Of a DNA stretch of 64,000 nt, positions 580-63,620 are shown in pieces; positions within the stretch are counted from its first letter, which is position 1, and each line of letters begins with the position of its first letter. The DNA is from Opitutia bacterium. GTDB taxonomy: Bacteria; Verrucomicrobiota; Verrucomicrobiia; Opitutales; UBA953. The notes under the pieces were generated by a model. The model ran no database searches. It was not told the DNA's origin and worked only from the letters and a program-made list of their open reading frames with translations. The position numbers and the translations under genes were made by a program. Where the stretch lies: positions 1 to 64,000 of the forward strand of contig SFEJ01000003.1 of NCBI GenBank assembly GCA_004558035.1, in the 5' to 3' direction.

Positions 580-821
580 TGTGTGGATTTGTTTTTGGTT
601 TTCGTTGAATTTTTGTGCGGATTCTACCCCGGTTAAGAATACCGAGGGGGAAACGCCTCCGAAGCCGCATAAACAAAAGAAACTGAACGACCGTTGAATA
701 TCGTTCAAAAGAGGAGCGAAATTCCCGACGCTCCCGCGAACATACTTTTAAGTAAATTTCGGCAAAGCGACAGGAATGTCGCTTCTCCCCTACGTTCCCG
801 CGAATCTTCGCCAAATGACGA

Positions 822-855
822 ATTCCGTGCTTTTCCGTGTTTTCCGTGGTTAAAA
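822..855 (+). repeat. TTTCCGTG triple-octamer intergenic repeat, solo copy
   Basis: Three TTCCGTG units spaced by one to three bases end in GTGGTTAAAA. The same arrangement borders the GxxExxY gene at 38541-38575 (inverted relative to this copy) and in shorter form at 38960-38985. No gene is enclosed here, so this looks like a solo copy or a remnant of such a cassette. Confidence 0.75.
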
Positions 856-995
856 CTTTCCTCTTGCCACGGTATTCTTAATCGGAGGGACGGCGAAAGG
901 CGGAGGAAGAAAGAAAGCTTAAAGGTTAAGGGTTAAAGCTTAAAAGGACGTTTGGGGAGATCTTCGGGGCAAGCGGGATGGTCGCCCTTCGGTGG

Positions 996-1026
996 AATTC
1001 GCGCTCATTCGCGGAAATTCGCGGTT
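996..1026 (+). repeat. ATTCGCG triple intergenic repeat, copy 1
   Basis: A 31-bp element made of three ATTCGCG units separated by CTC/GAA-type spacers and ending in GCGGTT. Identical 31-bp copies occur at 1246-1276 and 44713-44743. Its plan (three repeated octamer-like units, then GGTT) parallels the TTTCCGTG repeat, so the two may be sister families. Confidence 0.85.
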
Positions 1027-1245
1027 CCTAAAGATCTCCGTGCCTCGACGACGTTGGGGAAGTTGCGCCTTTCAGGCGCGTGTTCTCTTCGTGCCCAGCC
1101 TCAAGCGGCGTCGCCGCATGGGGTTATTTTTGTTCCGCATTTCATGCGAAGCGAAAAGCCTTCGAGAAACCCCGCTCCCAAAAAGAAATCCCTTAAAATC
1201 CCCGAAATCCCTGTTAAAAAAAGAGGGCAAGCGCGCCCCCCGTGA

Positions 1246-1276
1246 AATTCGCGCTCATTCGCGGAAATTCGCGGTT
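1246..1276 (+). repeat. ATTCGCG triple intergenic repeat, copy 2
   Basis: Identical over 31 bp to the copy at 996-1026 and in the same orientation, 250 bp downstream of it. It immediately precedes the tRNA-Leu fragment. Confidence 0.85.
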
Positions 1277-1296
1277 CCGTCTTCCCCGCGAAAAGC

Positions 1297-1322
1297 GCTT
1301 AGGGGTTCGAGTCCTCTCTGAG
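1297..1322 (+). pseudogene. tRNA-Leu 3'-end fragment in opposite orientation to the intact gene
   Basis: GCTTAGGGGTTCGAGTCC at 1297-1314 is the exact reverse complement of 1388-1405 inside the intact tRNA-Leu(GAG). It forms a complete T-arm (AGGGG/CCTCT around TTCGAGT) followed by CTGAGTC, which resembles an acceptor 3' strand but has no CCA. No 5' half is present. It may be the scar of an element that integrated at a tRNA 3' end, or a local inverted duplication. No integrase lies nearby. Confidence 0.5.
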
Positions 1323-1332
1323 TCCGGGCGCG

Positions 1333-1369
1333 AAAAAGCCCGCGAGCGTTGCGGCTTCGCGGGCTTTTT
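1333..1369 (-). terminator. Intrinsic terminator of tRNA-Leu(GAG)
   Basis: Stem AAAAAGCCCGCGA (1333-1345) pairs with 1357-1369 around an 11-nt loop. On the minus strand the stem ends in a T-run only five bases after the tRNA 3' end. The U-rich flanks on both sides would let it work in both directions. Confidence 0.85.
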
Positions 1370-1373
1370 GAAA

Positions 1374-1458
1374 TGGTGCTCAAGAGGGGACTCGAACCCC
1401 TAAGCCTCTCGGCATATGCACCTCAAGCATACGTGTCTACCAATTTCACCACCTGAGC
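1374..1458 (-). tRNA. tRNA-Leu(GAG)
   Basis: Full class II cloverleaf: acceptor GCTCAGG pairs with CTTGAGC (one G-U), D-arm region TGGTGAAATTGGTAGACACG, anticodon loop TTGAGGT giving GAG (Leu codons CUC/CUU), long variable arm, T-arm AGGGGTTCGAGTCCCCT, and genome-encoded CCA. A terminator follows directly. Confidence 0.95.
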
Positions 1459-1536
1459 AATGGAAAAAATGTAGAAGCGAATAAAATGTTTTTTCGGGAG
1501 AGGCGCAAGTCTTTTTTTGGAGATTCCGCAAAAAAA

Positions 1537-1568
1537 ACGTTCCCGCGGAGGGAAACCGCGGGAACGTT
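1537..1568 (-). terminator. Terminator built from an inverted pair of the iterated word
   Basis: CGTTCCCGCGG and CCGCGGGAACG face each other across a 7-nt spacer, giving a stem of about 13 bp, with an A8 run on the plus strand that reads as a U-run for the leftward carboxyltransferase gene ending at 1587. It is a textbook intrinsic terminator whose two arms are each an exact copy of the window-wide 9-mer, as uptake-sequence pairs are in Neisseria and Haemophilus. Confidence 0.9.
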
Positions 1569-1586
1569 CTTCGGGGAGACGCCGGC

Positions 1587-3203
1587 TCAGAGCGGCATGT
1601 TGCCGTGCTTCTTCGGCGGGCGCGTGCCGCGCTTGTTGAGCGTGTTGCGCAGCGCCATGGAGATGACGGCGCGCGACTTCGCGGGATCGATGACGTCGTC
1701 CACGATGCCCTGCGCGGCGGCGCGGTACGGCGCGGCGAACTGCGCGGCGTATTCGTCGGCGTGCGCCTTCTTCGCGGCGGCGGCGGCGGCTTTGCCCGCA
1801 GCTTCCGCCTCGGCTTCGGACTTTCCGGCGGCGAGCGCTTCGGCCTTCGCCTTTTCGCCCGCGGCGGCGATGTCCTTCTTGAAGATGATGTTGGCGGCGC
1901 CGTCCGGACCCATCACGGCGATTTCCGCGGTCGGCCACGCGTAGACGGCGTCGGCGCCGAGGTGCTTCGAGCACATGGCGATGTAGGCGCCGCCGTAGGC
2001 CTTGCGGAGAATGAGCGTGATCTTCGGCACGGTCGAGGCGGAGTACGCGTGGAGCATCTTCGCGCCGTGGCGGATGATGCCGCCGCGTTCCTGGTGCTTG
2101 CCGGGCAGGAAGCCGGGAACGTCCACGAGCGTGACGAGCGGAATGTTGAACGCGTTGCAGAAGCGGATGAAGCGCGCGCACTTGTCGGACGCGTCGATGT
2201 CGAGCACGCCCGCCTTCTGCGTCGGCTGGTTGGCGACGATGCCGCAGACGATGCCCTGCATGCGCGCGAAGCCGATGACGGCGTTCTTCGCGAAATCCTG
2301 CATGACTTCGAAGAACGTGTCCTCGTCGAAGAGGCGTTCGATGACCTTCTTCATGTCAATCGGATTCTTCGGGTCTTCGGGCACGAGCTTTTCCATGTAG
2401 GGATCCTCCTGCGTGCTGACGACGGGCGTCGGGTCGTGCGGCGGATCCTTCATGTTGTTGGACGGGAGATAGCTGAGCAGGCGGCGCGCGATCTGGAGCG
2501 CGTGCGCGTCGTCCTCGGCGACGAAGTGGACGTTGCCGCTGATGGAGGCGTGCGCGGCGGCGGAGCCGATTTCGTCCATCGTGCAGGCTTCGCCGGTGAC
2601 GGCCTTGATGACTTCCGGTCCCGTGATGAACATCTGCGCGTTCGTCTTCTTCATGATGATGAAGTCCGTCAGCGCCGGCGAATAAGCCGCGCCGCCCGCG
2701 CACGGGCCCGCGATGATCGAAATCTGCGGCACGACGCCGGACGACTGCACGTTGCGGTAGAAGATGTCGCCGAAGCCCTTGAGCGCCATTTCGCCTTCGG
2801 GAATGCGGGCGCCGCCGGAGTCGTTGATGCCGATGATCGGCATGCCGTTCGTGAGCGCGTATTCCTGCGTGCGCGCGATTTTCTGCGCGTGCGCGTGGCC
2901 GAGCGAGCCGCCCTGAACCGTAAAGTCCTGCGCGAAGATGGCGACGGGACGCCCGTCCACCAGACCGACGCCGGTGACGACGCCGTCGCAGGGCAGATCC
3001 TTGCCTTTCATGCCGAAATCCTGGCACTGATGCTTCACATGCATGCCGAATTCCATGAAAGAGCCGGGAGCGACCAGCCCTGCGATGCGGTCGCGCGCGG
3101 TCATGAGACCCTTGGCGCGACGAGCTTTCAGTTTGTCTTCGCCGCCGCCGTTGAGCGCCGTCTGGCGAAGCCGATTGAGATTTTCGATGAGCTCTTTCTT
3201 CAT
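1587..3203 (-). CDS. Biotin-dependent acyl-CoA carboxyltransferase beta subunit (PccB/MmdA family)
   Basis: The 538-aa product has the two crotonase-fold halves of the family. The first carries GGSLGHAHAQKI and INDSGGARIPEG, the second GFLPGKHQERGGIIRHGAK and YGGAYIAM, and it ends PPKKHGNMPL as these proteins usually do. It should transfer carboxyl groups between biotin and propionyl- or methylmalonyl-CoA, either in propionate/succinate metabolism or as part of a sodium-pumping decarboxylase. The biotin carrier and other subunits are not in the window, so the exact reaction is open. An Ala/Lys/Glu-rich insertion of roughly 25 residues follows NIIFKKDI, where relatives have a short linker. The start ATG lacks a clear Shine-Dalgarno. 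The gene has no exact copy of the iterated 9-mer, only CCGGGAACG near 2114. Confidence 0.9.
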   Translation of the reverse strand: MKKELIENLNRLRQTALNGGGEDKLKARRAKGLMTARDRIAGLVAPGSFMEFGMHVKHQCQDFGMKGKDLPCDGVVTGVGLVDGRPVAIFAQDFTVQGGSLGHAHAQKIARTQEYALTNGMPIIGINDSGGARIPEGEMALKGFGDIFYRNVQSSGVVPQISIIAGPCAGGAAYSPALTDFIIMKKTNAQMFITGPEVIKAVTGEACTMDEIGSAAAHASISGNVHFVAEDDAHALQIARRLLSYLPSNNMKDPPHDPTPVVSTQEDPYMEKLVPEDPKNPIDMKKVIERLFDEDTFFEVMQDFAKNAVIGFARMQGIVCGIVANQPTQKAGVLDIDASDKCARFIRFCNAFNIPLVTLVDVPGFLPGKHQERGGIIRHGAKMLHAYSASTVPKITLILRKAYGGAYIAMCSKHLGADAVYAWPTAEIAVMGPDGAANIIFKKDIAAAGEKAKAEALAAGKSEAEAEAAGKAAAAAAKKAHADEYAAQFAAPYRAAAQGIVDDVIDPAKSRAVISMALRNTLNKRGTRPPKKHGNMPL

Positions 3204-3282
3204 AGCAAAGTAATCGGTTCTTTTGATGGGATGGCACGCAGGGTAGCGCAGACGCGGGAAATAATCAAGCGTTCCCGCGCGC

Positions 3283-3639
3283 TCACGCCGCCTTCCCGCG
3301 GAAGACGAAATACACCGCGCCGACGAGGCAGCAGAACGCCCAGAGATAGTCCCAGCGCCATTTTTCGCCCATGAAGAGCAGCGCGAACGGCACGAAGACC
3401 GACAGCGTGATGACTTCCTGCATGATCTTGAGCTGCCCGAGCTCGAGCCCGCCCGCGTAGCCGATGCGGTTTGCGGGCACCATGATCAGATATTCGAAGA
3501 ACGCCACGCCCCAGCTCGTCAGCACCGCGATCATCCACGGCGCGTTCCGCAGCCCCTTGAGGTGCCCGTACCACGCGAACGTCATGAAGCAGTTGGAAAG
3601 TGCCAGCAGCGCCGCCGTCTTCAAAATCACCGGATTCAT
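3283..3639 (-). CDS. DUF486 family small membrane protein (DMT-like)
   Basis: A 118-aa protein with four predicted membrane helices, matching DUF486 in length and in phrases such as CFMTFAWYGHLK, SWGVAFFEYLIMVPANRIGY and LKIMQEVITL. DUF486 belongs to the drug/metabolite transporter-like clan, but no substrate is established. It lies downstream of the ABC transporter genes on the same strand with a 67-bp gap and may be co-transcribed or independent. Confidence 0.85.
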   Translation of the reverse strand: MNPVILKTAALLALSNCFMTFAWYGHLKGLRNAPWMIAVLTSWGVAFFEYLIMVPANRIGYAGGLELGQLKIMQEVITLSVFVPFALLFMGEKWRWDYLWAFCCLVGAVYFVFRGKAA

Positions 3640-3706
3640 ATGCGCGCAAAGCTCTACGCGCTTCGCCGAAAAAACGCAAGCACGCGCCCGTCGCGTTCCC
3701 GCGAGA

Positions 3707-5416
3707 TCACTTGTCCAGGCCCCAGCGTTCCCGCAGCCAGTTTTCCACCGGCGCGAAGCAGAGACGGTCCATCACGAGACCGACGAGGATGATGACGAGC
3801 ATCACGCCGTACACCTTTTCGACGTTCATCTCCTCGCGCCCGGCGTTGAGCATCCAGCCCAGCCCGACGCCGCTGAAGATGTACACGTAGATTTCCGCGG
3901 ACATCAGCGAGCGCCACGCGAACGCCCAGCCCTGCTTCATGCCCGAAAAGATCAGCGGGAGCGCCGCCGGGAACATCACGCGCGTCCACAGGTGAAGATT
4001 CTTCGAGCCCATCGTGCGCGCCGCGCGGACGTAGAGCGGCGGCACGCTGCGGATGCCGCTTTCCGTCGCGAGCATCAGCGACCACACCGAGCCCATCACG
4101 ACGACGGTCAGAATCGCCCATTCGTCCTGGCCGAAGATCACCAGCGAAATCGGCACCCAGCACACGCTCGGCAGCCCCTGGAAGCCGAGCGCGAGAACGC
4201 CCAGCGTGTCGCGCACGAGCTTGCTCTGCGACAGCAGCAGCCCGAGCGGGAGCGCGATCGCGAACCCGATCGCGTAGCCCAGCAGCAGGCGCCGCATCGT
4301 GACGAAGAGCGCGCTCAGAATCGAGCCGTCGCAGACGCCGCGCCAGAGAAAACACGCGATCTCCGAGGGTAGCGGGAAAATCCCCGCGCGCATCTTCGCC
4401 GAAATCTCCGTCGTCTGCACGAGCTTTTCGACGTCGACTTTTTCCGGAATCATGCCCGCCGCGTAGCCGTCGTTGATGTATTCGGCGAGCGAGCGTCTGT
4501 TCACCTCCGAGACGAAGCGGATGCGCGGGAACGCGTTGTTGACGATGCGCCGCGGGAACTCCGCGTGCGTCTCGCGCGTGAGCGCGCGCTGCAGCAGCGT
4601 CTTCGCCTCTTCCGGGTGCGCGTTGATCCACGCCGTGAGCTCGCCGTGCGCGACCGCGAAGGCGTTGAGCAGCTTCCTGCGGTGCGCGAGCGTCTCCGTC
4701 GAGCTCGCCAGCACGGTCGTCACGGATTCGAAGTCTTCGAGAAAAATCTTGCCGCCCGCGTCCAGTTCGAGCCGCGAGACCCAGGGCTCGACCGTCCACG
4801 CCGCCTCCAGCGTTCCCGCGCGGAAAAGCGCGAGCTGGTCGGGATTCTTCGTCGGCGCGATCTGCACGTCGCCGCCGCCCGCGGCGGGAACGGCGATTTT
4901 GTTCTTCACGAGCCAGGCGCGGCAGGCGACGTCCTGCGTGTTGCCGAGCTGGGGCGTGGCGATTTTTCTGCCGACGAAGTCGCGCGCCTCCGTTCCCGTG
5001 AAGTCCGCGCGCACGACGAGCGCGGCGCCGCCCTCGGCGCTCCCGCAGACGATGCGCACCGCGCCCTCGCGCCGGATGTAGGCGTTGATCGCGGGCGACG
5101 GACCGACGTAGGAGAGGTCGATCGAGCCGATCGTCAGCCCCTCCATCGCGGCGGGACCGGCGTTGTAGGGCTGCCAGGCGAGCTTCGTTCCCGCGGGCAG
5201 GCGCGGCTCGAACCACGGCTTGCCCTCGAACGCCATCTGCTGCGCGATGAGCGCCTGCGCGTGCGTGATGTTCGGGAAGTAGCCGACGCGCAGCGTCGAA
5301 TCGTCCGCGGTGTTTTTCTTCAGCGAAAAATCGGCGAGCCAGTCGCTGCGGCCGACGATTTCGAGCCCGGCGAGCAGAACCGCCGCGAAGAGAACGTAAA
5401 AAACGACGCGTTTCAT
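3707..5416 (-). CDS. Fused substrate-binding protein and permease of a nitrate/sulfonate/taurine-type ABC importer
   Basis: One 569-aa reading frame joins two proteins that are normally separate. Residues about 1-30 are an N-terminal membrane anchor or signal. Residues about 40-330 are an SsuA/NrtA-type binding domain (LRVGYFPNITHAQAL, YVGPSPAINAY, TPQLGNTQDVA). From about 350 the SsuC/TauC-type permease begins (FPLPSEI, then RRLLLGYAIGFAIALPLG and GFQGLPSVCWVP). No frameshift is needed, and the partner ATPase lies 55 bp upstream, so this is probably a real fusion with the binding domain tethered to the permease on its outer face. The substrate (sulfonate, nitrate, pyrimidine precursor or other) cannot be told from the sequence. 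Confidence 0.85.
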   Translation of the reverse strand: MKRVVFYVLFAAVLLAGLEIVGRSDWLADFSLKKNTADDSTLRVGYFPNITHAQALIAQQMAFEGKPWFEPRLPAGTKLAWQPYNAGPAAMEGLTIGSIDLSYVGPSPAINAYIRREGAVRIVCGSAEGGAALVVRADFTGTEARDFVGRKIATPQLGNTQDVACRAWLVKNKIAVPAAGGGDVQIAPTKNPDQLALFRAGTLEAAWTVEPWVSRLELDAGGKIFLEDFESVTTVLASSTETLAHRRKLLNAFAVAHGELTAWINAHPEEAKTLLQRALTRETHAEFPRRIVNNAFPRIRFVSEVNRRSLAEYINDGYAAGMIPEKVDVEKLVQTTEISAKMRAGIFPLPSEIACFLWRGVCDGSILSALFVTMRRLLLGYAIGFAIALPLGLLLSQSKLVRDTLGVLALGFQGLPSVCWVPISLVIFGQDEWAILTVVVMGSVWSLMLATESGIRSVPPLYVRAARTMGSKNLHLWTRVMFPAALPLIFSGMKQGWAFAWRSLMSAEIYVYIFSGVGLGWMLNAGREEMNVEKVYGVMLVIILVGLVMDRLCFAPVENWLRERWGLDK

Positions 5417-14623: not shown

Positions 14624-14686
14624 GGAGAAAGTGAAAAGCGGAAACGCGAAGCCGAAGGAAGTTAAAGAAAATTGTCTAGGAGGGGG

Positions 14687-14767
14687 TGCTCGAGGAGGGA
14701 TTCGAACCCTCACGCCTCGCGGCATCGGAACCTAAATCCGACGTGTCTGCCGTTTCACCACTCGAGC
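14687..14767 (-). tRNA. tRNA-Leu(UAG)
   Basis: Class II cloverleaf: acceptor GCTCGAG pairs perfectly with CTCGAGC, anticodon loop TTTAGGT gives UAG (Leu codon CUA and wobble), long variable arm GCCGCGAGGC-type, T-arm GAGGGTTCGAATCCCTC. CCA is not encoded (the three bases after discriminator A are CCC), unlike the other tRNAs here. Its 5' end is only 11 bases after the ahcY stop codon, so it may be processed from the ahcY transcript. Confidence 0.95.
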
Positions 14768-21422: not shown

Positions 21423-23468
21423 TCAGGCGTCTTTCCAGCGACCGTGCTCCTTGATGAGCGCGACGAGGCGATCGACCGCCTCGCTCTGCGGGATGCCCGT
21501 CGCGACGCATTCGCGGCGGACGTAAAGATTGATTTTCCCGGGAGCGCCGCCGACGTAGCCGAAATCCGCGTCCGCCATTTCGCCGGGACCGTTCACGATG
21601 CAGCCCATGACGCCGATCGTCACGCCGTCGAGGTGCGCGGTGCGCGCCTTGATTTCGCGGACGGTCGCCTGAATGTCGTACAGCGTGCGCCCGCAGCTCG
21701 GGCAGGCGACGTATTCCGTGCGCGTCTGCCGCGCGCGCGCGCCCTGAAGGACGGCATAGGCGAGCTCGAGATTCTTGCGGAGCGTTCCCGCGGTCTCGAC
21801 GGAGACAACGTCGCCGATGCCGTCGCAGAGCAGCGGACCGGCGAGCAGCGCCGCCTCGAGCGCGGGCGCTTCGTCGGGCGTCGCCGTGGGAATTTTCGAA
21901 AACGGGAGCACGGTGTTCTTCGCGCTCGCGCGGATCCAGATCGGCGCGCGGATGTCCGCGTTCGCGAGCGCCTGGGCGAGCTGGCGGTACGCGCCGACGG
22001 GATGCACGCCGGGCGCCTTGCGGCTCGTCGTGAAGATGAGCTTTTCCTGCGGGAAATTCTTCAGATGCGGCAGCACCGCGGCGCGCGCGGCGGCGGTGGA
22101 ATCGACGACGAGGCCGACGCCCTTGTCGCGGCAGAGCGCCGCCCACGCGGGAACGATTTCCGCGTTCGCGGGATTGAAGCGGCGCTGGACGTAGGTCGCG
22201 GACCTGCGCGACGGCGAAAACCGCGCGAAGAGCTCGGGAACGCTGTCCTTCACGGGATCGAAGACGAAGGCGGGAATCTCGTCCTCGAGCGCGCACTGCA
22301 GCTCGCAGGCGGCGGCGAGGTCGGACTCCGTCGCGACGGGAAGCACGAGCCCCTCGACGGGCGCGGACTTCGCGTTCGCGGCGCGGACTTCGCGGATGAT
22401 CTCCTCGAGCGGCTTTTCGACGTCGGCGAAGGCGAACACGCGCGGCGGCGTTCCCGCGTCGATTCCGCATTCGTCGTTGAATTTCACCGACACGACGGGG
22501 CGGCGGTGAAATTCGAGCGGATCGACGTCGCGGTCGCTGACGGGCGCGTTCGCGGGAACGCTGCCGGCGATGAGCGTCTTTTCCGGAATGATGCGCGAAA
22601 GGATCTCGCGGCACACGGGCAGCTCGCGCCACGGGTCTTCGGTGAGCGAGACGCGGATCGTGTCGCCGATGCCGTCCACGAGCAGCGAGCCGATGCCGAT
22701 CGCGGACTTGATGCGCGCGTCCTCGCCCTCGCCCGCCTCGGTGACGCCGAGATGCATCGGGTAGTCCATACCCTCTTCCGCCATGCGCACGGCGGCGAGA
22801 CGGTACGCCTCGATCATCACTTTCGGGTTGGACGACTTCATCGAAAGCACGAGGTCGCGAAAGTTCTCCGCCTCGCAGATGCGCACGAACTCGAGCGCCG
22901 CCTCGACCATGCCCGCGGGCGTGTCGCCGAAGCGCCGCAGCGTGCGCTCCGCGAGCGAGCCGTGATTCGTGCCGATGCGCAGCGCGCGCCCGAGCTCCTT
23001 CGCGCGGCGGATCAGCGGCGCGACGGCGTCGTGCACACGCTCGAGCTCCTCGGCGTACTCGGCGTCCGTGTAGTCGCGCGGCGCGCCCGTCGGGGATTTC
23101 TTGTCGGCGTAGTTGCCCGGGTTGATGCGGACTTTCTCGACGTGCTCGATCGCCTCCATCGCCGCGGCGGGCAGGAAATGAATGTCCGCGACGAGCGGCT
23201 GGGAGAAGCCGGCGGCGCGGAACTTCGCGTGAATGTCCTTGAGCGCGCGCGCCGCGGGAACGCTCGGCGCCGTGACGCGGATGAGCTCGCTGCCCGCCTC
23301 CGCGAGGCGGATGCACTGCGCGACCGTCGCGTCCACGTCGAGCGTGTTCGACGTGGTCATCGACTGGATGCGGATCGGGTTGTTTCCGCCGATGCCGACG
23401 TTCCCGCCGACGAGGACTTCGCGCGTCTTGCGCCGGACGGTGTTGAAACGGGAAATTGCGTAATTCAT
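21423..23468 (-). CDS. ispG: 4-hydroxy-3-methylbut-2-en-1-yl diphosphate synthase, long form
   Basis: The 681-aa IspG (GcpE) makes HMBPP in the MEP isoprenoid pathway and needs a [4Fe-4S] cluster. The N-terminal TIM barrel is evident (GGNNPIRIQSMTT, VADIHFLP, KVRINPGNY, IGTNHGSL), and the C-terminal cluster domain shows ACPSCGRTLYD and GVMGCIVNGPGE. Between them sits an extra domain of roughly 250-280 residues, the three-domain layout known from plants, Chlamydiae, Bacteroidetes and Verrucomicrobia, whereas E. coli-type enzymes have about 370 residues. Copies of the iterated 9-mer lie in the insert, read as A-G-T or V-P-A. Confidence 0.96.
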   Translation of the reverse strand: MNYAISRFNTVRRKTREVLVGGNVGIGGNNPIRIQSMTTSNTLDVDATVAQCIRLAEAGSELIRVTAPSVPAARALKDIHAKFRAAGFSQPLVADIHFLPAAAMEAIEHVEKVRINPGNYADKKSPTGAPRDYTDAEYAEELERVHDAVAPLIRRAKELGRALRIGTNHGSLAERTLRRFGDTPAGMVEAALEFVRICEAENFRDLVLSMKSSNPKVMIEAYRLAAVRMAEEGMDYPMHLGVTEAGEGEDARIKSAIGIGSLLVDGIGDTIRVSLTEDPWRELPVCREILSRIIPEKTLIAGSVPANAPVSDRDVDPLEFHRRPVVSVKFNDECGIDAGTPPRVFAFADVEKPLEEIIREVRAANAKSAPVEGLVLPVATESDLAAACELQCALEDEIPAFVFDPVKDSVPELFARFSPSRRSATYVQRRFNPANAEIVPAWAALCRDKGVGLVVDSTAAARAAVLPHLKNFPQEKLIFTTSRKAPGVHPVGAYRQLAQALANADIRAPIWIRASAKNTVLPFSKIPTATPDEAPALEAALLAGPLLCDGIGDVVSVETAGTLRKNLELAYAVLQGARARQTRTEYVACPSCGRTLYDIQATVREIKARTAHLDGVTIGVMGCIVNGPGEMADADFGYVGGAPGKINLYVRRECVATGIPQSEAVDRLVALIKEHGRWKDA

Positions 23469-35267: not shown

Positions 35268-36557
35268 TCAGCGGGCGGCGGCCTTGCCGAAGTCCGCGGA
35301 AAGCGTCCGCCGCGCGAGCGCGACGAGCCAAAAGCCGGGAATCGTGCACAGAATCGCCCACCAGAAGAACGCCTCGTAGCCGAGAAATTCCTGCAGCGCG
35401 CCCGCCCAGAATTTCGGCAGCATCGCGCCCAGCGCCATGAAGCCCGTGCAGATCGCGTAGTGCGCGACGGCGCGCCGCGTTCCCGCGCACGCGTGCAGCA
35501 TGTAGAGCATGTAGCCCGTGAAGCCGAAGCCGTAGCCGAACATCTCGACCACGATGCCCGCGCCGACGAGCGGGAGCGCCGAGGGCTGCGCGTGCGCGAA
35601 CGCGACGTAGATGAGGTCCGGCACGTTCAGTAGCAGAATCATCGGGAACAGCCACGCGCGCAGGCCGTTGCGCGAGACGAGCCAGCCCGCGAGCACGCCG
35701 CCCGCGAGCATCGCCGCGACGCCGAACGTGCCGTTGAGCAGCCCGAGCGCGCGGTTGTCCAGCGCGAGCCCGCCGTGCTCGAGCGCGTCCTTGAAGAACA
35801 GCGGCGAGACCGCGCCGATCTGCACTTCGCCGAAGCGGAAGAACAGCAGGAAAAGCAGCAGGAAGCCGATCCGTTCCTTTCTGAAGAAACTTTTCCACGT
35901 GTCCGCGAAGTCGCCGAAAAGCGAGCCGCCGCGCGTTCCTGCGGGAACGTCGTTCGCCGGGCGCGGCAGAGCCGCCGCGTGGAAGAACGCGAGCGCGCCC
36001 GAAAGCAGCGCGAGCCCGACGAACACCTGCGTCCACGCCGTTCCCGCGGGAACCTCGTTCGCGATGAGCACGCCCGCCGCCGCGATCACGCCGCCCTTGG
36101 CGAAGATCTGCGAAAGCCGGAAGAACGTGCTGCGCCAGCCCGAATAGAACGCCTGCCGCCCCGAATCCAGCGCGAGCATGTAGAAGCCGTCCGCCGCGAT
36201 GTCGTGCGTCGCCGAAACGACGGCGACCGCGAAAAGCGCCGCGACGATGCCGAGCGCGGGAACGCCGAAGAAGAACGCCGCCGCGAGCGCGCCGAGCAAC
36301 AGCGCTCCCGCCGCCTGCGTGCCGAAGATCCACGCGCGCTTGCGCCCGACGCTGTCCACGAGCGGGCTCCAAAGCGCCTTCAGCGTCCACGGCAGATACG
36401 CCCACGCGGCGACCGTCGTGATGACGGCGTTGTCGAAGCCGAGGTCCTTCATCGCGACGGGCGCGACGAGATCGACGACGGCGTTCGGCAGCCCCTGCGT
36501 GAAATAAAGCGTCGCGACCCAAAGAGCGGCGACGCCGGAAAGAGCGGAAGTCTTCAC
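35268..36557 (-). CDS. AmpG-like major facilitator transporter
   Basis: A 429-aa, 12-helix MFS protein. The N-terminal phrases LYFTQGLPNAVVDLV and AAWAYLPWTLKALWSPLVD, followed by GRKRAWI, and AATHDIAADGFYML-like VSATHDIAADG are typical of AmpG, which imports anhydromuropeptides for cell-wall recycling. Muropeptide or another sugar-peptide substrate is likely; this is a family-level inference. The preferred start is GTG at 36557, since the residues encoded further upstream are not transporter-like. Confidence 0.85.
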   Translation of the reverse strand: MKTSALSGVAALWVATLYFTQGLPNAVVDLVAPVAMKDLGFDNAVITTVAAWAYLPWTLKALWSPLVDSVGRKRAWIFGTQAAGALLLGALAAAFFFGVPALGIVAALFAVAVVSATHDIAADGFYMLALDSGRQAFYSGWRSTFFRLSQIFAKGGVIAAAGVLIANEVPAGTAWTQVFVGLALLSGALAFFHAAALPRPANDVPAGTRGGSLFGDFADTWKSFFRKERIGFLLLFLLFFRFGEVQIGAVSPLFFKDALEHGGLALDNRALGLLNGTFGVAAMLAGGVLAGWLVSRNGLRAWLFPMILLLNVPDLIYVAFAHAQPSALPLVGAGIVVEMFGYGFGFTGYMLYMLHACAGTRRAVAHYAICTGFMALGAMLPKFWAGALQEFLGYEAFFWWAILCTIPGFWLVALARRTLSADFGKAAAR

Positions 36558-36616
36558 GGAAAAAAACGACGGGAGAACGCCGCGAAAAAAGAATTTCCGC
36601 TGCGCCTCGAAACTCC

Positions 36617-36772
36617 TCAAGGAGTCTGAATCGTCACGCGCGAAGCGTCGCCCGCGCCGAGGTGGATGACCTTCGGTCCCGACGAGCACGCGCCCGCGAG
36701 CAGGCAGAGCGCGAGCGCCGCCAGCGCGAACGCCGCGCGGCGGGAACGCGCGGTTTTCTCAGTTTTCCGCAT
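36617..36772 (-). CDS. Small putative lipoprotein (51 aa)
   Basis: An ATG embedded in the end of the preceding gene (14-bp overlap) opens a 51-codon frame: MRKTEKTARSRRAAFALA, then LALCLLAGACSSGPKV, and ending ASRVTIQTP. The basic N-terminus, hydrophobic core and AGAC followed by SSG make a good lipoprotein signal, although the residue at -3 is Ala rather than Leu. The mature peptide would be about 23 residues. Stop TGA lies 60 bp before the AmpG-like gene. The tight overlap suggests it is a real gene coupled to its neighbour. Confidence 0.6.
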   Translation of the reverse strand: MRKTEKTARSRRAAFALAALALCLLAGACSSGPKVIHLGAGDASRVTIQTP

Positions 36773-51721: not shown

Positions 51722-51751
51722 AAAACGTTCCCGCGGGAGGGCGGGAACGTT
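51722..51751 (-). terminator. gapA terminator built from an inverted pair of the iterated word
   Basis: ACGTTCCCGC and GCGGGAACGT face each other across a 6-nt spacer (GGGAGG), with an A-run on the plus strand acting as the U-run for leftward gapA. Both arms contain the exact window-wide 9-mer, the second such case after 1537-1568. Confidence 0.9.
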
Positions 51752-51773: not shown

Positions 51774-52787
<1,014 letters not shown>

Positions 52788-55025: not shown

Positions 55026-55271
55026 TCAAAAATCCTCCGGATTGCTCCAGACGTCTCCCTCGGTTCTGAGGCGTCGCGCGTTCTCCTTTTCCACCGCGTC
55101 CAGATAGGCGTCCATGGTGCGGATTTCGCCGCGGACGACGCCCGAAACCGCCGGCTTGTTGTAGCCCGGGTCGTCGGGATTTTCGGCCGTGGTGCAGGAC
55201 GCGAGCGTTCCCGCGACGCACAGCGCCGCGGGAACGACGAGCAGGAATTTTTCTGCGGGAACGCGCGTCAT
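55026..55271 (-). CDS. Small lipoprotein (81 aa)
   Basis: MTRVPAEKFLLVVPAALCVA followed by GTLASCTTAENPDD shows a strong lipobox (LASC). The mature part, about 50 residues, is charged and ends EGDVWSNPEDF. Function unknown. It sits eight bases after the phosphohexomutase stop and 23 before the RelE-like gene. Confidence 0.75.
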   Translation of the reverse strand: MTRVPAEKFLLVVPAALCVAGTLASCTTAENPDDPGYNKPAVSGVVRGEIRTMDAYLDAVEKENARRLRTEGDVWSNPEDF

Positions 55272-55279
55272 GCTTCGTT

Positions 55280-57314: not shown

Positions 57315-60254
57315 TTGTGCGCAAAAACCGACCCTTCTTCCCCTAATCCCCGCGTTCCCGTGCCCCCGATTTCTTCGAAAACCCTGGACAAAAACGGCTT
57401 CGCGCTGTTCGCCGTCGTGCTGATGCTGATGCTCATGGCGGCCGTTTCCGCCGCGCTCTTCACGTTTTCGGAAAGGGAAAAGACGCTGACCGACGCCGCC
57501 CTGAAACGCACCGCCGCGAACCGGGCCGTGACGAACGCCGCGAGAATCGCCCTGGCGGAACTGCAGCAGCGCGCGGGAACGGATTCCGCGTCCACCGCGC
57601 CCGACCCGGGAAGTCCCGAAAATCCCTGGAGCACCGCGCGCGGCGGCGCGGCTTCGGAAGAAAATCCGTCGCCCGCGCGGAAGCCTTCCGCGCCCGTCCC
57701 GCTCGTTTCGCGCGCCTCGACGCAGAACGGCGGCGCGGCCTCGTTCCCGAATCCCAAGTCGCCCGGAAAAAGAACGTCCGTTCCCTGGAGATACGTCGGC
57801 GACGATCTCCGCATCGCCTATTTCATCGTCGACGAATCAGAGAAGTTTCCGCTGCGCGACGACCGTCCGGAAGCCGCGGAAACCGCCGCGGACGCGCGCG
57901 CGGAACAGCGGCGCGGTCAAGTGTTCGGCGCTCCCGCGGCGGCGCTCAAGGCGTTCCCGCGCAACGCCCCGGCGCTGCGGAACGCGCGATACGACCCCGC
58001 GTTCTTCTTCGCCGAAAATTCCGCCAAGGGAACCGACCGCGAGACGACGGCGCTGCGGACGCTCGGCGTCATCGCCGACTGGCCGCGGAACGCGCTCAAA
58101 AAAGATCTCTCGGAAACGGCGGACGCGAAAACGCTTTTCACGGCGGAAACGCTCGCGTCCCGCGAAACGGAACCGCATCGAGGCGTTCCCGTGGCGACGT
58201 CGGAGCGGAAACCCGCGGCGGGGAAGCTCGGACTCTGCGAGCATTTCTGCCCCGTCGTCGCGGATCTCCGGCTGCACGTCGGCTTCTTCAATCCGCGCAC
58301 CGACGGTCAGCACCGCGCGCGCTTCCACGTCACCGCGAAGCTGTGGAACCCCTACGCGTTCCCGCTGCTCGCGCACGCCGACGGCCAGCTCGGGCTGATC
58401 GACTTCTCCGTGCTGCCGGCGTTTTCGGTGACCAACAGGAACACCGGCGCGGAATTTTCGGCGGAGCTTTCGAATTTCCCGACGGGACGCTTCGGGCTCG
58501 TCCGCCAGACACCGTCCGACAAGACATTCAACGCCTACTGCAGAATTTTCGACGCGTCCGACCAGGGCTTCGGGACGGACAGGAAATCGCCGGAAGTCGG
58601 ACTGCACGCGGGCGAAATCTACACGGCGCGCTTCCCCGACCCGAAAGGCCAGCCGGAAGGCCTTTCCCGGATCACGGGCGGCGCGACCTGGAAGTTTCAG
58701 AAAGGCTCCAACCCGAACAAACCGCCCTCGGGCGCCGTCGGCGGAAGATGGTTCCACGACGAACACGCGATAGAATTCTTTTCGATTCCGCCGCTGTTTC
58801 CCGGAGAAATCGTACTCCGCCACTACAACGGAAGTTTCCGGCAGACCTCGACGCCGCAGGACTACGCGCCGCCGATTCTGAGATTCGTGAACGTGAATTT
58901 CCCTTACGTCCAGTTCACGCTGACGGGCAAGGAATACAACCGCCAGAAGGCGGGCGACCACGATGTCGCGCAGGCGAACCTGGTCTACCGCATCCGTCTG
59001 CGGACGGAGGACGAGAACGCGCTGAAGAATCTTCTGGAAAACGTGGACCTGCGCGACGCCGTCTTCGACTTCGCCGACCCCGTCGTGGCCGCCGCGTTCG
59101 AAGTCTCCGCCCACGTCGGCGAAGCCGCGAAGAGACTCGCCGACGCGGAGGACGACGAGAACGAAACGTATTTTTTCGATAAATACGTCAACGAACACAG
59201 GACGGAAGAGCGCGTTCCCGCGTTTTCGTCGATTCAGCTCTACGATCTGCCCGACAGCGGCGCGCTGTCCGCGAACGCGATCCGTTTTCCGCATCAGACC
59301 GGAATTCCTCCGCTCGCGCTCGGACGCTTCGACGGGAAGGTCGCCGAACTGAAGGTCAATCAGATCTTCGACAGGTATTTCTTCTCCGCGAAAAAACGTA
59401 TTGAAAATACGATTACAAGCGACAATCCGCTTTTCGTGAAGAAGGACCGGAGCCTGTGCGGGCTTTCGTTTTCGTCGCCCCGCCCCGTCGATTTCGCGGA
59501 AGAATGCATGACGGACGGTCCGTTCAACATGAACTCGACGAACGAAAAGGCCTGGACCGCCCTGCTCTCCAACGCGTTCGAAAAATGGGAGCAGTATTCG
59601 GGAAGAGCCGGAGAACTGAACATGCCCTGGGACGCGCCGCGCGCGAAAAAGGATTTTGACAACGCGTTTTTCGTCCGCCCGTTTTCGGCGCAGTTCTTCT
59701 CTCCGGACGGGAAAATCTTCCCGTTGAGCGACAAGGAGCTGGAGGCGGCGCATTGGCGTTCCCGCGACCATTTTCTGCTTTCTCAGGGTCTCCGCAGCGT
59801 TCCCGCGGAAAAGATCGCCCGCCTGGCGAAAAGCGTCGCCGACGAAAACCGCGAACGCCTCGCCGCGGGAAAACATTTCGCGTCCGTGGCGGAATTCGCG
59901 GATTCCGGCATTCTTCATCGCGGCATCGAACGCGCGGAAATCAACACGTTGGGCGGAAGGAAGATTCCCGCGTGGTTCCCGGGATTTCTGCGCCAGGAAC
60001 ACGTGCTGCAGAACATCGGGCAGCGGCTCTCGCCGCGCGGCGACACCTTCAAGATCTACGCGCAGGCGGAAATCCTCAATCCGCTCACGGGAAGACCGGA
60101 AGCGCGCGCGACGGCGGCGATGCTCGTCCAACGCTTCCCGGATCTCTTCGACGCGTCGCAGCGCCCGAACACGCCTTACGACGAATGCGGCGCGGTGAAC
60201 CGCAATTTCGGACGCCGCTTCAGAATCGTCAGCTTCAGATACGGCATAGAATAG
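57315..60254 (+). CDS. Verru_Chthon cassette protein A-like, prepilin-type N-terminus
   Basis: The 979-aa protein begins with a prepilin-like stretch: LDKNG then FALFAVVLMLMLMAAVSAAL, followed by ARIALAELQQRAGTDSAS, the pattern 'ALxELQxxxGxD' that marks Verru_Chthon cassette protein A of Verrucomicrobia. The body is large and beta-rich, with a 'GPFNMNST' phrase (DGPFNMNSTNEKAWTALLS) also typical of the family. These proteins are processed like type II secretion pseudopilins and have unknown function. The usual companions (cassette B-D) are absent nearby. The start is uncertain: TTG at 57315 or GTG at 57360; no ATG is available before the helix. Confidence 0.85.
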   Translation: MCAKTDPSSPNPRVPVPPISSKTLDKNGFALFAVVLMLMLMAAVSAALFTFSEREKTLTDAALKRTAANRAVTNAARIALAELQQRAGTDSASTAPDPGSPENPWSTARGGAASEENPSPARKPSAPVPLVSRASTQNGGAASFPNPKSPGKRTSVPWRYVGDDLRIAYFIVDESEKFPLRDDRPEAAETAADARAEQRRGQVFGAPAAALKAFPRNAPALRNARYDPAFFFAENSAKGTDRETTALRTLGVIADWPRNALKKDLSETADAKTLFTAETLASRETEPHRGVPVATSERKPAAGKLGLCEHFCPVVADLRLHVGFFNPRTDGQHRARFHVTAKLWNPYAFPLLAHADGQLGLIDFSVLPAFSVTNRNTGAEFSAELSNFPTGRFGLVRQTPSDKTFNAYCRIFDASDQGFGTDRKSPEVGLHAGEIYTARFPDPKGQPEGLSRITGGATWKFQKGSNPNKPPSGAVGGRWFHDEHAIEFFSIPPLFPGEIVLRHYNGSFRQTSTPQDYAPPILRFVNVNFPYVQFTLTGKEYNRQKAGDHDVAQANLVYRIRLRTEDENALKNLLENVDLRDAVFDFADPVVAAAFEVSAHVGEAAKRLADAEDDENETYFFDKYVNEHRTEERVPAFSSIQLYDLPDSGALSANAIRFPHQTGIPPLALGRFDGKVAELKVNQIFDRYFFSAKKRIENTITSDNPLFVKKDRSLCGLSFSSPRPVDFAEECMTDGPFNMNSTNEKAWTALLSNAFEKWEQYSGRAGELNMPWDAPRAKKDFDNAFFVRPFSAQFFSPDGKIFPLSDKELEAAHWRSRDHFLLSQGLRSVPAEKIARLAKSVADENRERLAAGKHFASVAEFADSGILHRGIERAEINTLGGRKIPAWFPGFLRQEHVLQNIGQRLSPRGDTFKIYAQAEILNPLTGRPEARATAAMLVQRFPDLFDASQRPNTPYDECGAVNRNFGRRFRIVSFRYGIE

Positions 60255-60263
60255 CCGCGCGCC

Positions 60264-61028: not shown

Positions 61029-61039
61029 GACCAAAAAAT

Positions 61040-61588
61040 TCAGATTTCCCGTTCAGTGATTCGCCTCAGCGTCGGCGCGCTCCCGTTTCCGCAGACCAGA
61101 CGCAGCGTCGTCGCCTTGCGCGGATCGAAGCCTTCGGGAAAAACGAAGACGCATTTCAGAACGCCGCGGGAGAAGACGAGACCCGAACATTTGAGAACGC
61201 GGCCGTCCGCGTCGAGAAGCTCGCAGTCGAGATCGGCGGCGCTTTCGGGAGACGTTTCCGCGTCGAATTCGAAGACGTATTCCGCGCCCCGGAGACCGGA
61301 CCGCGAGAGCGCGGCGCCGACGGGAAAATCATTATTCCCCTGCCCTGCCCTGAACGTCCCCGAAAAAATTTCCGACGCCTTATCCGAAACGCCTTCGGCG
61401 GGAACGGAAATTTTTCGCGCCTCGGGGACTCCTTCCCGATCTTCCATGACGAGTGCGAACATAAGCACCAGAATCAGAACGGCCATGAAGGCGAACAGCT
61501 TTTTCGGAAGCTTCACCTTCAGATTCACCGCCAACAGCGCGGCGCCGACGACGCACGCTCCGAGGAGCGCATAAAAAATTTCATTCAC
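61040..61588 (-). CDS. Membrane-anchored protein of unknown function
   Basis: The 182-aa protein has two adjacent N-terminal membrane helices (IFYALLGACVVGAALLAV and LFAFMAVLILVLMFALVM) and an extracytoplasmic beta-rich domain (AEYVFEFDAETSPESAADLD, GVLKCVFVFPEGFDP). I do not recognise the family. Four-base overlap with the M23 peptidase gene upstream and 11 bp to tlyA. Confidence 0.72.
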   Translation of the reverse strand: MNEIFYALLGACVVGAALLAVNLKVKLPKKLFAFMAVLILVLMFALVMEDREGVPEARKISVPAEGVSDKASEIFSGTFRAGQGNNDFPVGAALSRSGLRGAEYVFEFDAETSPESAADLDCELLDADGRVLKCSGLVFSRGVLKCVFVFPEGFDPRKATTLRLVCGNGSAPTLRRITEREI

Positions 61589-62580
61589 GGGAACCTCCTG
61601 TCGAAAATGATTTCCAAGTAGTTCTTCAGCGTGCTTCCCGGAACGTGTCCGCCTTCGACGGCGGAGAGAATCCCGCGCTTTTCGGCAAGCCCGGCGGAAG
61701 CGGCGTCCACGTCGAAGACTTCGACGTCCGCGTTCCCGACGGCGTCCGAATCCCGAAACGCCAAAGGCATTCCGAACCAGGTGAAATCGACAACGCAGGA
61801 TTTAGCTCCGTTCTTCCCGAACCTCTTGAGAGCCGGGCTTCTCGCCGCGAGGCTCGGCGTCTCCTCCGGCATCGGGAGACGGACGGAAAACGCCTTTTTC
61901 TGCGAAGCGATCCACTCGCGGAAACGGAGCTCCTTGCCGTCGGAATGAAACGCGAAGAAATCCAGCGGATCCGCGCCCGCGAGATTGAACCCGTTGCAGA
62001 CTCCGTGAAGATTTCCCGACCCGTATCTGCGCCGATACCAGTTTTCGAAACCTTTTTCGCCGAGCATCATTCCCACTTCGAAATGGAGATGCGCGGCGTT
62101 CTTTTCTATCCGGACCGCCGTGGAGGTCCGCCCGAGCATGCCCAGAACCGCTCCCGCGGGAACACGGTCGCCTTCCTTCAGCAAAGGAGAAACGGCGAGC
62201 AGATGCGCGTAAAGCGTGTAAAGCTGAACGCCTCCGTTTTCATGGATCAGCACGACGTACCTGCCGTAGGAGCCGTTGTTCAGAGGCGAAACGTGCGCGA
62301 CCGTTCCCGCGCAGACGGCGCGGACGACGTCCATGGGCACTCCGCCGTCCATTTTCCGGACGGACTTCACGTCCACGCCTTCATGAAACCGGGTTCCGCC
62401 GTTTCTCACCATGCCGAACGAAGCGGATTCCGTCCTTCCCGAAGCCACCGGCTGGAGAAAAGAAAAATCGCCCCGTTTCAGAAAATCCCCGATGTCCAAA
62501 GAAGTCGGACTCGCTATCTCCTCCGCGGAAAAAAGCGGAAAAGAACCCGAAAGAATGAGCAGAAACGCCGCGAAACGCAT
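61585..62580 (-). CDS. M23-family peptidoglycan endopeptidase
   Basis: The 331-aa exported protein (signal MRFAAFLLILSGSFPLFS) has a LytM/M23 domain at about 50-180: GGTRFHEGVDV supplies the first His and Asp, LYTLYAHL, and AAHLHFEVG the HxH motif. All metal ligands are present, so an active D,D-endopeptidase is plausible. A C-terminal domain of about 140 residues (HGVCNGFNLAGADPLDFF, then VVDFTWFGMPLAFRD) is unusual and not recognised. Overlaps the next gene by four bases. Confidence 0.9.
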   Translation of the reverse strand: MRFAAFLLILSGSFPLFSAEEIASPTSLDIGDFLKRGDFSFLQPVASGRTESASFGMVRNGGTRFHEGVDVKSVRKMDGGVPMDVVRAVCAGTVAHVSPLNNGSYGRYVVLIHENGGVQLYTLYAHLLAVSPLLKEGDRVPAGAVLGMLGRTSTAVRIEKNAAHLHFEVGMMLGEKGFENWYRRRYGSGNLHGVCNGFNLAGADPLDFFAFHSDGKELRFREWIASQKKAFSVRLPMPEETPSLAARSPALKRFGKNGAKSCVVDFTWFGMPLAFRDSDAVGNADVEVFDVDAASAGLAEKRGILSAVEGGHVPGSTLKNYLEIIFDRRFP

Positions 62581-62582
62581 CG

Positions 62583-63134
62583 TCAGTGCTTCACGTCCTT
62601 CATGTATTCACGCCGCTCCAGAATGTACTCGTTCAGCACGAAACAGACTTCGCGGAGCTCTTCCGCGAGCTCGCGGCCGTCTTTTCTGGATTCGATGACG
62701 AAAAAGAGGTCGTCTCTGCGGATCTGACGCCGGATGAGACAATAGCCGACGGGATTGCCGTCCACGACGAGGAAAAAGCGCTTGAGCCCGCGACCTTCCG
62801 CGATGGCTTCTCCGGACGCCTGGTAGATCTGCAGCCATTTCTCGGCCTTGACCTGAAGTCGAATTCCCGGAATCGCCTCGCCCATGTCCTCCTGAATCAG
62901 AAATTCCGCGTTGGTGAAGGAATCGATGTCGGCGACGGGCGGCGTGGTGATCCGCGCCTTCACGCCCGAAACCGGCATGACGATTTCCTGATGAAGCCCG
63001 AAACTGGACGAACGCGTGGGCGCCTCCAGAAAGACGTCGATGGCGTGGCGCGGCATGGGTTTCGAGCAGGCCGCGAGCAAAGCCAGAATTCCGGCGGAAA
63101 AAAAGAAAAGAATCTTCTTAAGCATTTTATTCAT
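62583..63134 (-). CDS. Lipoprotein of unknown function
   Basis: The 183-aa protein has a clear lipoprotein signal (KKILFFFSAGILALLAAC). The mature part opens RHAIDVFLEAPTRSS and contains GEAIPGIRLQVKAEKWLQIY and a C-terminal helical, Arg-rich end. Two start codons three residues apart are possible. Two bases separate its stop from the M23 gene start, so the two products may work together at the cell wall; that is inference from gene order. Confidence 0.75.
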   Translation of the reverse strand: MNKMLKKILFFFSAGILALLAACSKPMPRHAIDVFLEAPTRSSSFGLHQEIVMPVSGVKARITTPPVADIDSFTNAEFLIQEDMGEAIPGIRLQVKAEKWLQIYQASGEAIAEGRGLKRFFLVVDGNPVGYCLIRRQIRRDDLFFVIESRKDGRELAEELREVCFVLNEYILERREYMKDVKH

Positions 63135-63137
63135 GAT

Positions 63138-63620
63138 TCAGATTATAAAGGCGTCGATGACGGAAGCAAGCCGCGCCAAGATTTCGGGATCCGCGTCCCG
63201 GACGGGAACGCTGAATTTTTTTTTGCTCTTCACGTGAACGAAATTCTGAAATCCGTTCTCAGGCGCGCCCGCGGCGCGGAGAATTCTTTTCCGTTCGAGA
63301 TAAAGAGCGACGAACTGCTTGAGAATCTCGCCGTCTTCGCTCGGCGGCACGTCGAAGAGCGAAAAGAAGAAATCCTCCTGAGAGACCAGTTTCTGCTTCA
63401 TATCCGCGGACGCGGCGGGATCGGAAGAGAACACGCGCCGCCAGAATCCGACCAGCGTCCCGGGCGCCTTGAGCGCGGGAACGTTGCGTTCGAGCACGTC
63501 CGTGCGCTCGATCTCGCCGGATTCCGTCTTGAACACGAAGCACATGACGGAGTCTCCGTCCGAAAAAGCCTCGCCGGAAACGCCGCACCGCTTAGACAGG
63601 GATCTGATGCTCCATTCCAT
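63138..63620 (-). CDS. Conserved hypothetical protein of the W-x-I-x-S-x-x-C type
   Basis: The 160-aa protein starts MEWSIRSLSKRCGVSGEAFS and continues DSVMCFVFKTESGEIERTDV, then EILKQFVALYLERKRIL. The order (Trp near the start, Cys and a GEAF segment, an R-T/D phrase, later a Leu-rich LxRKRxL helix) recalls a family of short proteins of Planctomycetes and Verrucomicrobia with unknown role; only one Cys of the usual zinc-ribbon-like set remains. First gene of the operon with the lipoprotein, M23 peptidase and tlyA; three bases from the lipoprotein gene. Confidence 0.7.
   Translation of the reverse strand: MEWSIRSLSKRCGVSGEAFSDGDSVMCFVFKTESGEIERTDVLERNVPALKAPGTLVGFWRRVFSSDPAASADMKQKLVSQEDFFFSLFDVPPSEDGEILKQFVALYLERKRILRAAGAPENGFQNFVHVKSKKKFSVPVRDADPEILARLASVIDAFII

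Follow-up and report, generated by a model that had tools for sequence, protein, structure and literature searches.

The nine-base word GCGGGAACG as a candidate DNA uptake sequence in a genus of Opitutales

Introduction

In the literature consulted, DNA uptake sequences are described only in the Neisseriaceae and the Pasteurellaceae (PMC3630211, PMC2397512, PMC12616744). The DNA uptake sequence (DUS) of Neisseriaceae, which is read by the minor pilin ComP, is a short non-palindromic word occurring in thousands of copies, in both orientations and mostly within genes, with a strict inner core; it is conserved within slightly divergent surroundings and forms terminator pairs (PMC3630211, PMC2397512). 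The uptake signal sequence (USS) of Pasteurellaceae has a 9-base core word spread genome-wide, in genes and in terminators, and its receptor is predicted to be the minor pilin ComN/PpdA (PMC12616744). Here we analyse the word GCGGGAACG in a stretch of 64,000 nucleotides from an Opitutia bacterium of the order Opitutales (contig SFEJ01000003.1, positions 1 to 64,000; hereafter the window), where it had been singled out as a candidate DNA-uptake-type sequence, and in the genomes of its relatives.

GCGGGAACG shares with DUS the sequence features listed above as well as a similar top density (PMC3630211, PMC2397512), and with USS the length of the core word, the genome-wide distribution and the occurrence both in genes and in terminators. 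It belongs to another phylum than DUS and is unrelated in sequence to both DUS and USS. It lacks the CTG core of neisserial DUS and is neither a neisserial DUS nor a pasteurellacean USS; unlike in Neisseriaceae, ComP was not found by profile searches with two pilin families, terminator pairs are a small minority, and uptake is a prediction from sequence. The USS of Haemophilus influenzae has an AT-rich extended flank (PMC1852404), whereas GCGGGAACG has none. Our literature search, which left most subscription papers outside, found, among the papers listed, no uptake sequence from Verrucomicrobiota, and the original prediction likewise knew of no described example with this word or in this phylum; the search found no match to GCGGGAACG as a whole word, and among the matches listed for its core CGGGAACG anywhere, the titles looked unrelated. 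We propose that GCGGGAACG is probably a DNA uptake sequence that evolved independently in this genus.

A dense and dispersed word in the window

Recounting gave 149 exact copies of GCGGGAACG in the window, 72 forward and 77 in reverse (CGTTCCCGC), exactly as first reported. The core CGGGAACG occurs 99 times in each orientation (198 in total), which leaves 49 core-only variants where about 50 had been noted. The first word starts at 793 and the last ends at 63483, so the reported span also holds.

793..63483, both strands: GCGGGAACG array, 149 exact words and 49 core-only CGGGAACG variants
Forward GCGGGAACG starts: 1558 4525 4884 5461 6210 7678 8335 10639 11572 11655 12425 12562 13152 15551 16645 18809 19013 19400 19643 20727 21038 22147 22552 23254 23755 25368 26454 27788 28486 29320 29437 30258 30382 31068 32097 33351 33674 34051 34541 34600 35941 36256 36740 37597 37945 41834 41980 42883 42943 42992 43138 43571 43912 44228 45329 46511 47522 48029 48798 50041 50121 50877 51741 53688 55228 55255 56352 57573 60584 60957 61398 63475
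Reverse (CGTTCCCGC) starts: 793 1538 3270 3694 3726 4811 5186 6025 6429 7172 7707 9275 9793 10475 10549 12048 12812 13048 13895 14177 14405 15901 16048 16443 16566 18408 19927 20393 20953 21783 22449 23399 24374 24394 24651 25069 25787 27726 31373 31814 31865 31988 32928 33049 34194 34994 35478 36039 37573 37716 37806 38063 38094 40993 44941 45475 46360 47068 47758 48194 49594 49771 50157 51090 51281 51726 52821 53760 55206 55832 56963 57952 58357 59213 59757 59798 62302

Base composition alone (order 0) predicts 1.45 copies, within the one or two originally estimated, and Markov models of order 1, 2 and 3 predict 3.9, 5.1 and 11.2 (higher orders absorb the word itself). Among 9-mers of the window, GCGGGAACG has the top z-score for over-representation. 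The 44 genes predicted by a codon-usage caller contain 120 copies, against a mean of 9.9 (sd 2.8, maximum 18) in 200 synonymous-codon shuffles. These genic words, about 80% of the total (120/149), occupy all six frames, the peptides most often encoded being Ala-Gly-Thr (44) and Val-Pro-Ala (36). The near-equal orientation held on testing (72:77, binomial p = 0.74), and the word is indeed no palindrome, differing from its own reverse complement. Spacing is near exponential (coefficient of variation 0.93, Kolmogorov-Smirnov (KS) p = 0.52).

Genome-wide abundance in one genus

We used the gcpE gene of the window both for finding relatives and for building a tree.

21423..23468, minus strand: gcpE gene, 681 aa, with six words, each with its own presence pattern across relatives

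The metagenome-assembled genomes nearest in GcpE, all titled Opitutales, were RGIG7497 from water buffalo colon (83% identity), RUI087 (76%) and RGIG2967 from goat rectum (71%), the next match being at 58%; the matched assemblies fall in genomes G001, G002, G003 and G004. The genus of G002 comprises the eight genomes listed below. The GcpE of the window is 72-83% identical to that of all eight and nested among them in the GcpE tree. Genome-wide counts come from these eight genomes, the species of the window being represented by its 64 kb alone; copies are on both strands, the control is the reversed word, and densities were computed from rounded genome sizes.

G187: 4396 copies of GCGGGAACG; control 44; 2.75 per kb
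G042: 3907 copies; control 48; 1.86 per kb
G096: 3514 copies; control 60; 1.76 per kb
G002: 3488 copies; control 48; 2.18 per kb
G003: 3353 copies; control 52; 1.86 per kb
G148: 3060 copies; control 46; 1.80 per kb
G001 (word-poor): 743 copies; control 62; 0.35 per kb
G188 (word-poor): 336 copies; control 37; 0.18 per kb

Outside the genus, density is at a background of about 0.07 per kb or less, as read by eye from the tables, in the other 71 of 79 genomes of the family, in 171 of 177 of the order and in 384 of 387 of a phylum sample that took in only three members of the genus. Over-representation is thus a genome-wide property of six of the eight relatives and not a peculiarity of the window. 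It persists while sampled G+C content ranges from 51.5 to 64.4%. The density exceeds the one copy per kb with which it had been compared in Neisseria, but it is about equal to that of the densest case in the Neisseriaceae, Kingella oralis (5918 DUS in 2.4 Mb; PMC3630211).

Conservation at the DNA level

We compared exact retention of words at aligned sites with that of control 9-mers of the same G+C and CpG content in 16 ordered genome pairs. Between word-rich genomes, retention is above control, and related genomes therefore share the word at the same sites, a check that had been suggested together with the original prediction. The largest comparisons are G003/G096 (136/162 words versus 2353/5536 controls, and 136/163 versus 2353/5726 in the other direction) and G042/G148 (123/172 versus 2742/5564, and 123/133 versus 2742/4769). 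The trend extends to G003/G042 (21/31 versus 254/1253, and 21/31 versus 254/1210), G187 to G003 (16/33 versus 221/1745), G187 to G042 (10/29 versus 200/1608), G002 to G042 (3/4 versus 21/198) and, on small numbers, the window to G002 (2/7 versus 38/394) and to G042 (3/8 versus 56/505). One gene of the window has words in common with two relatives:

35268..36689, minus strand: gene of the MFS family containing four words, of which G042 and G148 have three as exact copies at the corresponding positions

Flanks of the words are less conserved than the aligned average in nearly all rich-rich pairs (e.g., 0.901 versus 0.920, 0.875 versus 0.895 and 0.780 versus 0.802), and DUS are likewise conserved within slightly more divergent surroundings (PMC2397512).

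Synonymous codons were compared in 18 ordered pairs, with genes taken as the longest open frames, without annotation. In the six larger rich-rich comparisons, synonymous change inside versus outside words was 2.3 versus 20.1%, 4.8 versus 21.1%, 5.2 versus 17.0%, 1.5 versus 17.2%, 3.1 versus 38.2% and 8.8 versus 41.2%, so that synonymous codons in words change 3-12 times less often than elsewhere. In four rich-rich pairs with few codons, 0/4, 2/4, 6/16 and 0/14 changed inside words, against 45-55% outside. GCGGGAACG is conserved at the DNA level in the word-rich members of the genus. These results bear on the view that the word is a mobile repeat or terminator cassette, or the product of codon or peptide bias, which would agree with the part of the words that lies in terminator-like hairpins (see below). 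Against it stand the genic location of about 80% of the words in all six frames, the disappearance of the excess on codon shuffling, the absence of a shared flank, the suppression of synonymous change inside words and the persistence of the word across G+C contents; we regard this view as largely refuted and scarcely credible.

Shape, hairpins, orientation and placement

In the six word-rich genomes and the window, positions 2-6 of the word (CGGGA) are strict, with most one-base variants near or below expectation, whereas its edges tolerate A or T at position 1, G at position 7 and A at position 9, all several-fold enriched. The flanks carry little information past two or three bases, and there is no conserved extended flank. 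Two further possibilities have to be considered at this point: recognition of the word by a DNA methyltransferase or a restriction system, and an iterated word of modification origin such as HIP1 of cyanobacteria. HIP1, which is also very dense, genome-wide and lineage-specific, shows that such words can exist without a role in uptake. It is palindromic, whereas GCGGGAACG is a non-palindromic word of nine bases with a strict five-base core, which pairs into hairpins; furthermore, restriction targets are usually avoided rather than enriched. We find such a modification-related role or origin very unlikely.

Words in close inverted pairs form terminator-like hairpins, of which the window has these:

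1538..1566: CGTTCCCGC...GCGGGAACG inverted pair, 11-base loop, A run before; terminator-like on the minus strand, immediately 3' of the gene at 1587-3203 (minus strand)
51726..51749: CGTTCCCGC...GCGGGAACG inverted pair, 6-base loop, A run before; terminator-like, just downstream of the minus-strand gene at 51774-52775 (GAPDH-like by Pfam)
55206..55263: cluster of three words, oriented reverse, forward and forward, within 58 bases that belong to no predicted gene; words one and two make an inverted pair with a 13-base gap, followed by a short T run

Across the window and sampled stretches of the six rich genomes, 28 T-flanked inverted pairs have the arrangement CGTTCCCGC...GCGGGAACG and 4 the opposite one. 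Close inverted uptake sequences also form terminators with one arrangement preferred (PMC1852404). In the word-poor G001, 11 of 67 words lie in terminator-like pairs, a larger share than in rich genomes, and in G188 1 of 48.

On contig C11 of G148 (490 kb), predicted genes hold 1.68 words per kb and the remaining sequence 2.14, and the spacing of the words is near exponential (KS p = 0.09). Within genes, sense words outnumber antisense ones, both on this contig (390:281) and in the window (70:50), which matches the bias of uptake sequences toward one orientation in the reading frame (PMC2346458). Relative to the contig as a whole, orientation is 378:487 on C11, where the forward fraction of 0.437 compares with 0.433 (order 0) and 0.402 (order 2) expected, and 162:121 on contig C1, where it is 0.572 against 0.533 and 0.598. 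Strand composition thus explains the overall orientation on both contigs, and the absence of strong strand or replichore polarity assumed by the original prediction is borne out.

These data allow a Chi-like site to be weighed, that is, a word steering a repair nuclease of the RecBCD or AddAB type, with different lineages using different G-rich words. Chi sites are frequent, species-specific and G-rich, and Chi words differ between species. GCGGGAACG is G-rich on one strand, as are GCGGAGGAA, GGTGGCGT and TGCCGGTG of other family members, and on C11 it is commoner on the G-rich strand (487 versus 378). However, this excess is predicted by base composition and absent in the window; the density of Chi in Escherichia coli is several times below the roughly 2 per kb of GCGGGAACG; and terminator-like inverted pairs, which GCGGGAACG forms in a preferred arrangement, are not a feature of Chi. 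A Chi-like role is in our judgement unlikely.

The most word-poor 10-kb bin of C11, at 180-190 kb, has 5 words against a mean of about 18, and a G+C content of 48%. The genes of an overlapping island (182-194 kb) encode RexA-like, HsdR_N, Mrr-type restriction and ankyrin/Schlafen proteins; this is a single island, of possibly recent acquisition. DUS are absent from recently acquired genes (PMC2397512). An rRNA operon as the cause of the word-poor stretch was ruled out, Rfam showing only one tRNA. As for words in plasmids, one megablast search with 8 kb found no plasmid match. The word could also be bound by a protein that organises or segregates the chromosome and requires sites at high frequency throughout; this would fit the near-random spacing genome-wide, the conservation as DNA and the lineage-specific loss described below. 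Yet there is no polarity beyond composition, so that the word does not resemble the FtsK orienting polar sequences (KOPS), and such a protein predicts neither the scarcity in one island of defence genes nor the terminator-like pairs. We rate this explanation, too, as improbable.

Near-loss in two members of the genus

Toward the two word-poor genomes, hardly any words are kept: 0/11 from G002 to G001 (control 42/481), 0/13 from G002 to G188 (61/597), 1/14 from the window to G001 (95/838) and 1/9 from the window to G188 (62/686). One word site in gcpE is common to the window and G188. In eight rich-to-poor pairs, synonymous change was 30-69% inside words (n = 3-26) versus 41-53% outside; protection of the words is gone with respect to G001 and G188. 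In the rich-to-poor pairs, amino-acid identity is 46-72% at word codons versus 70-78% elsewhere, and thus the words sat at dispensable residues.

In the GcpE tree, the window pairs with G001; G188 and then G002 join this pair in turn, and the other five genomes make up the opposite side. The key forks are moderately supported (87-91 ultrafast bootstrap, 93-95 SH-aLRT). The tree requires two changes between word-rich and word-poor, which we read as one gain and two losses of GCGGGAACG in the genus. A dialect shift was considered for both word-poor genomes, but k-mer scans (205 kb and 241 kb) revealed no new dispersed word in either. G001 has broader one-mismatch variants of GCGGGAACG. In G188, we observed imperfect intergenic repeats of CACCACCAACCC that are clustered, often near contig ends, and not dispersed (stretches L101-L110, L150, L163, L172, L179, L181 and L230-L236).

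Uptake machinery and the search for a receptor

The original prediction called for a search for ComEC, ComEA, a type IV pilus and a ComP-like minor pilin. ComEC, type IV pilins, PilT and DprA are present in all eight genomes of the genus; no small ComEA was found, and no ComP was matched in PDB profile searches with two pilin families. In the family, ComEC occurs in 73 of 79 genomes and a PilT-family protein over the cut-off in 75 of 79, including the eight of the genus, in each of which a weaker second family member beside it was taken for PilB. A secretin was identified in 7 of the 8, and none was found in G187. Matches to HHH_3 over the cut-off lie in frames of 773-831 aa, which we took for Tex-like proteins, with five weaker matches below the cut-off. 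Loss of the word through loss of pilin, ComEC, PilT or DprA is unsupported, all of them being present in G001 and G188.

Each rich genome has 7 N-methylated pilins, and G001 and G188 have 11 each (one below the cut-off in G001). A separate harvest of pilins by motif missed one cluster pilin in G096 and, in both G001 and G148, the PilA-like one; N-methyl matches in these three genomes number 7, 11 and 7. Among the pilins are a four-gene cluster (with GspG-, GspH- and GspI/PilV-like members), a GspG-like protein, a PilA-like protein and an orphan of 131-143 aa. Four extra pseudopilins and a second secretin lie on one contig each of G001 (C36, L182) and G188 (C62, L181) and in none of the six word-rich genomes; they are probably a type II secretion system. 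For one frame of the window, homologues lie close to the gene of the orphan pilin in G003 and G096:

13061-14725, minus strand: 554-aa frame without Pfam match

Known uptake receptors are minor pilins, shown for ComP and predicted for ComN (PMC12616744). The candidate receptor class for USS, a GspH/FimT-like minor pilin, is present in the four-pilin cluster, where binding of DNA by it is hypothetical. We looked for a receptor by charge, by GRxR-type motif and by PDB profile, and no convincing candidate emerged.

Other dense words in the family

We sampled 15-91 kb from each of 16 genomes of the family outside the genus, and found other dense dispersed words in three of them:

G186 (L248, L257-L263): GCGGAGGAA, extended to A and TT (GCGGAGGAA(ATT)); 58 in 90.6 kb, 44 coding versus 5.8±2.3 shuffled
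G181 (L243, L264-L269): (G)ACGCCACC; 73 in 68.7 kb, 52 coding versus 12.0±3.0 shuffled
G180 (L241, L242, L270, L271): CACCGGCA and kin; 107 in 79.9 kb, 88 coding versus 22.0±3.1 shuffled

The last is the least clear case because it strongly favours one reading frame. Only 2/58 and 2/73 matches are found immediately before called starts, so these words are not ribosome-binding sites. The orientation of GCGGAGGAA in G186 leans with a strong GC skew and at times further (0:9, 0:8), so this word may be polar. Contig C10 of G186 is the reverse complement of L062, from uncultured Opitutae SRR1561996_bin.4. In the remaining 13 genomes, no word of comparable strength was seen in 15-62 kb, in which a sparser word would escape. 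Words may turn over family-wide, as these samples suggest.

In other Verrucomicrobiota contigs (L031, L009 and L021), short repeats occur in local clusters or in pairs (CACGGATTA, GAGTACAGA and ACTCTCACT). Two further frames of the window are recorded here:

3707-5416, minus strand: single 569-aa frame fusing an NMT1-like substrate-binding domain and an ABC permease domain (Pfam)
57837-60131, minus strand: 764-aa frame without Pfam match, passed over by the gene caller

Discussion

The interpretation of GCGGGAACG as a DNA-uptake-type sequence has been strengthened. The word is over-represented genome-wide and shows no strong polarity; in addition, it is conserved as DNA between slightly more divergent flanks, forms terminator-like pairs and is scarce in one defence island. 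In these hallmarks it resembles DUS and USS, and preferential uptake is its predicted function. A type IV pilus receptor would prefer DNA carrying GCGGGAACG; most of the DNA entering the cell would therefore stem from close relatives, and recombination would continually renew the word. We infer that a minor pilin reads GCGGGAACG, that its binding raises uptake, and that biased uptake together with recombination maintains the words, while G001 and G188 would have lost the specificity and kept the uptake machine.

Several observations weigh against this interpretation. In word-rich genomes, only 3-9% of the words lie in terminator-like pairs. Orientation varies beyond chance across 20-kb bins (p = 0.011 and 0.001), and retention is low in two small comparisons (window to G002, 2/7 with control 38/394; window to G042, 3/8 with control 56/505). 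No small ComEA-like protein over the cut-off was found in any of the eight genomes; PDB profile searches with two pilin families returned pilins and no entry named ComP, and the GRxR motif is absent from the pilins inspected. Word-poor and word-free relatives have the uptake genes just as word-rich ones do, so gene content fails to track GCGGGAACG. Finally, the other words of the family share no core with it, unlike the neisserial dialects. In favour of the interpretation, the occurrence of different dense words in other family members recalls DUS dialects in a looser way. The existence of these other dense words slightly lowered our confidence in an uptake function and raised that in a Chi-like one.

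With an uptake function still our preferred reading, we can sketch, tentatively, a broader picture that is possible but that we hold to be somewhat doubtful: a family of Verrucomicrobiota whose self-DNA uptake words would have been replaced wholesale between genera, with G186 using GCGGAGGAA, G181 ACGCCACC and perhaps G180 CACCGGCA. The genus studied here would use GCGGGAACG and would have lost it on two occasions, the resulting species being natural knock-outs that still have the uptake machinery. Such words would have been invented independently of those in Neisseriaceae and Pasteurellaceae, would be read by a new receptor and would turn over far faster than in any described case.

If GCGGGAACG is an uptake sequence, this genus has arrived independently at a device that two other bacterial families also have, and self-DNA recognition can arise on the pilus of Verrucomicrobiota. 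Whether uptake sequences serve selective sex or result from selfish drive is an old argument. A single genus with six word-rich and two word-poor species, and apparently with other words in neighbouring lineages, provides replicated comparisons that bear on which gene change accompanies loss, how fast words decay and how a new word becomes established. Tagged DNA fragments might, moreover, open genetics in bacteria that are now without it.

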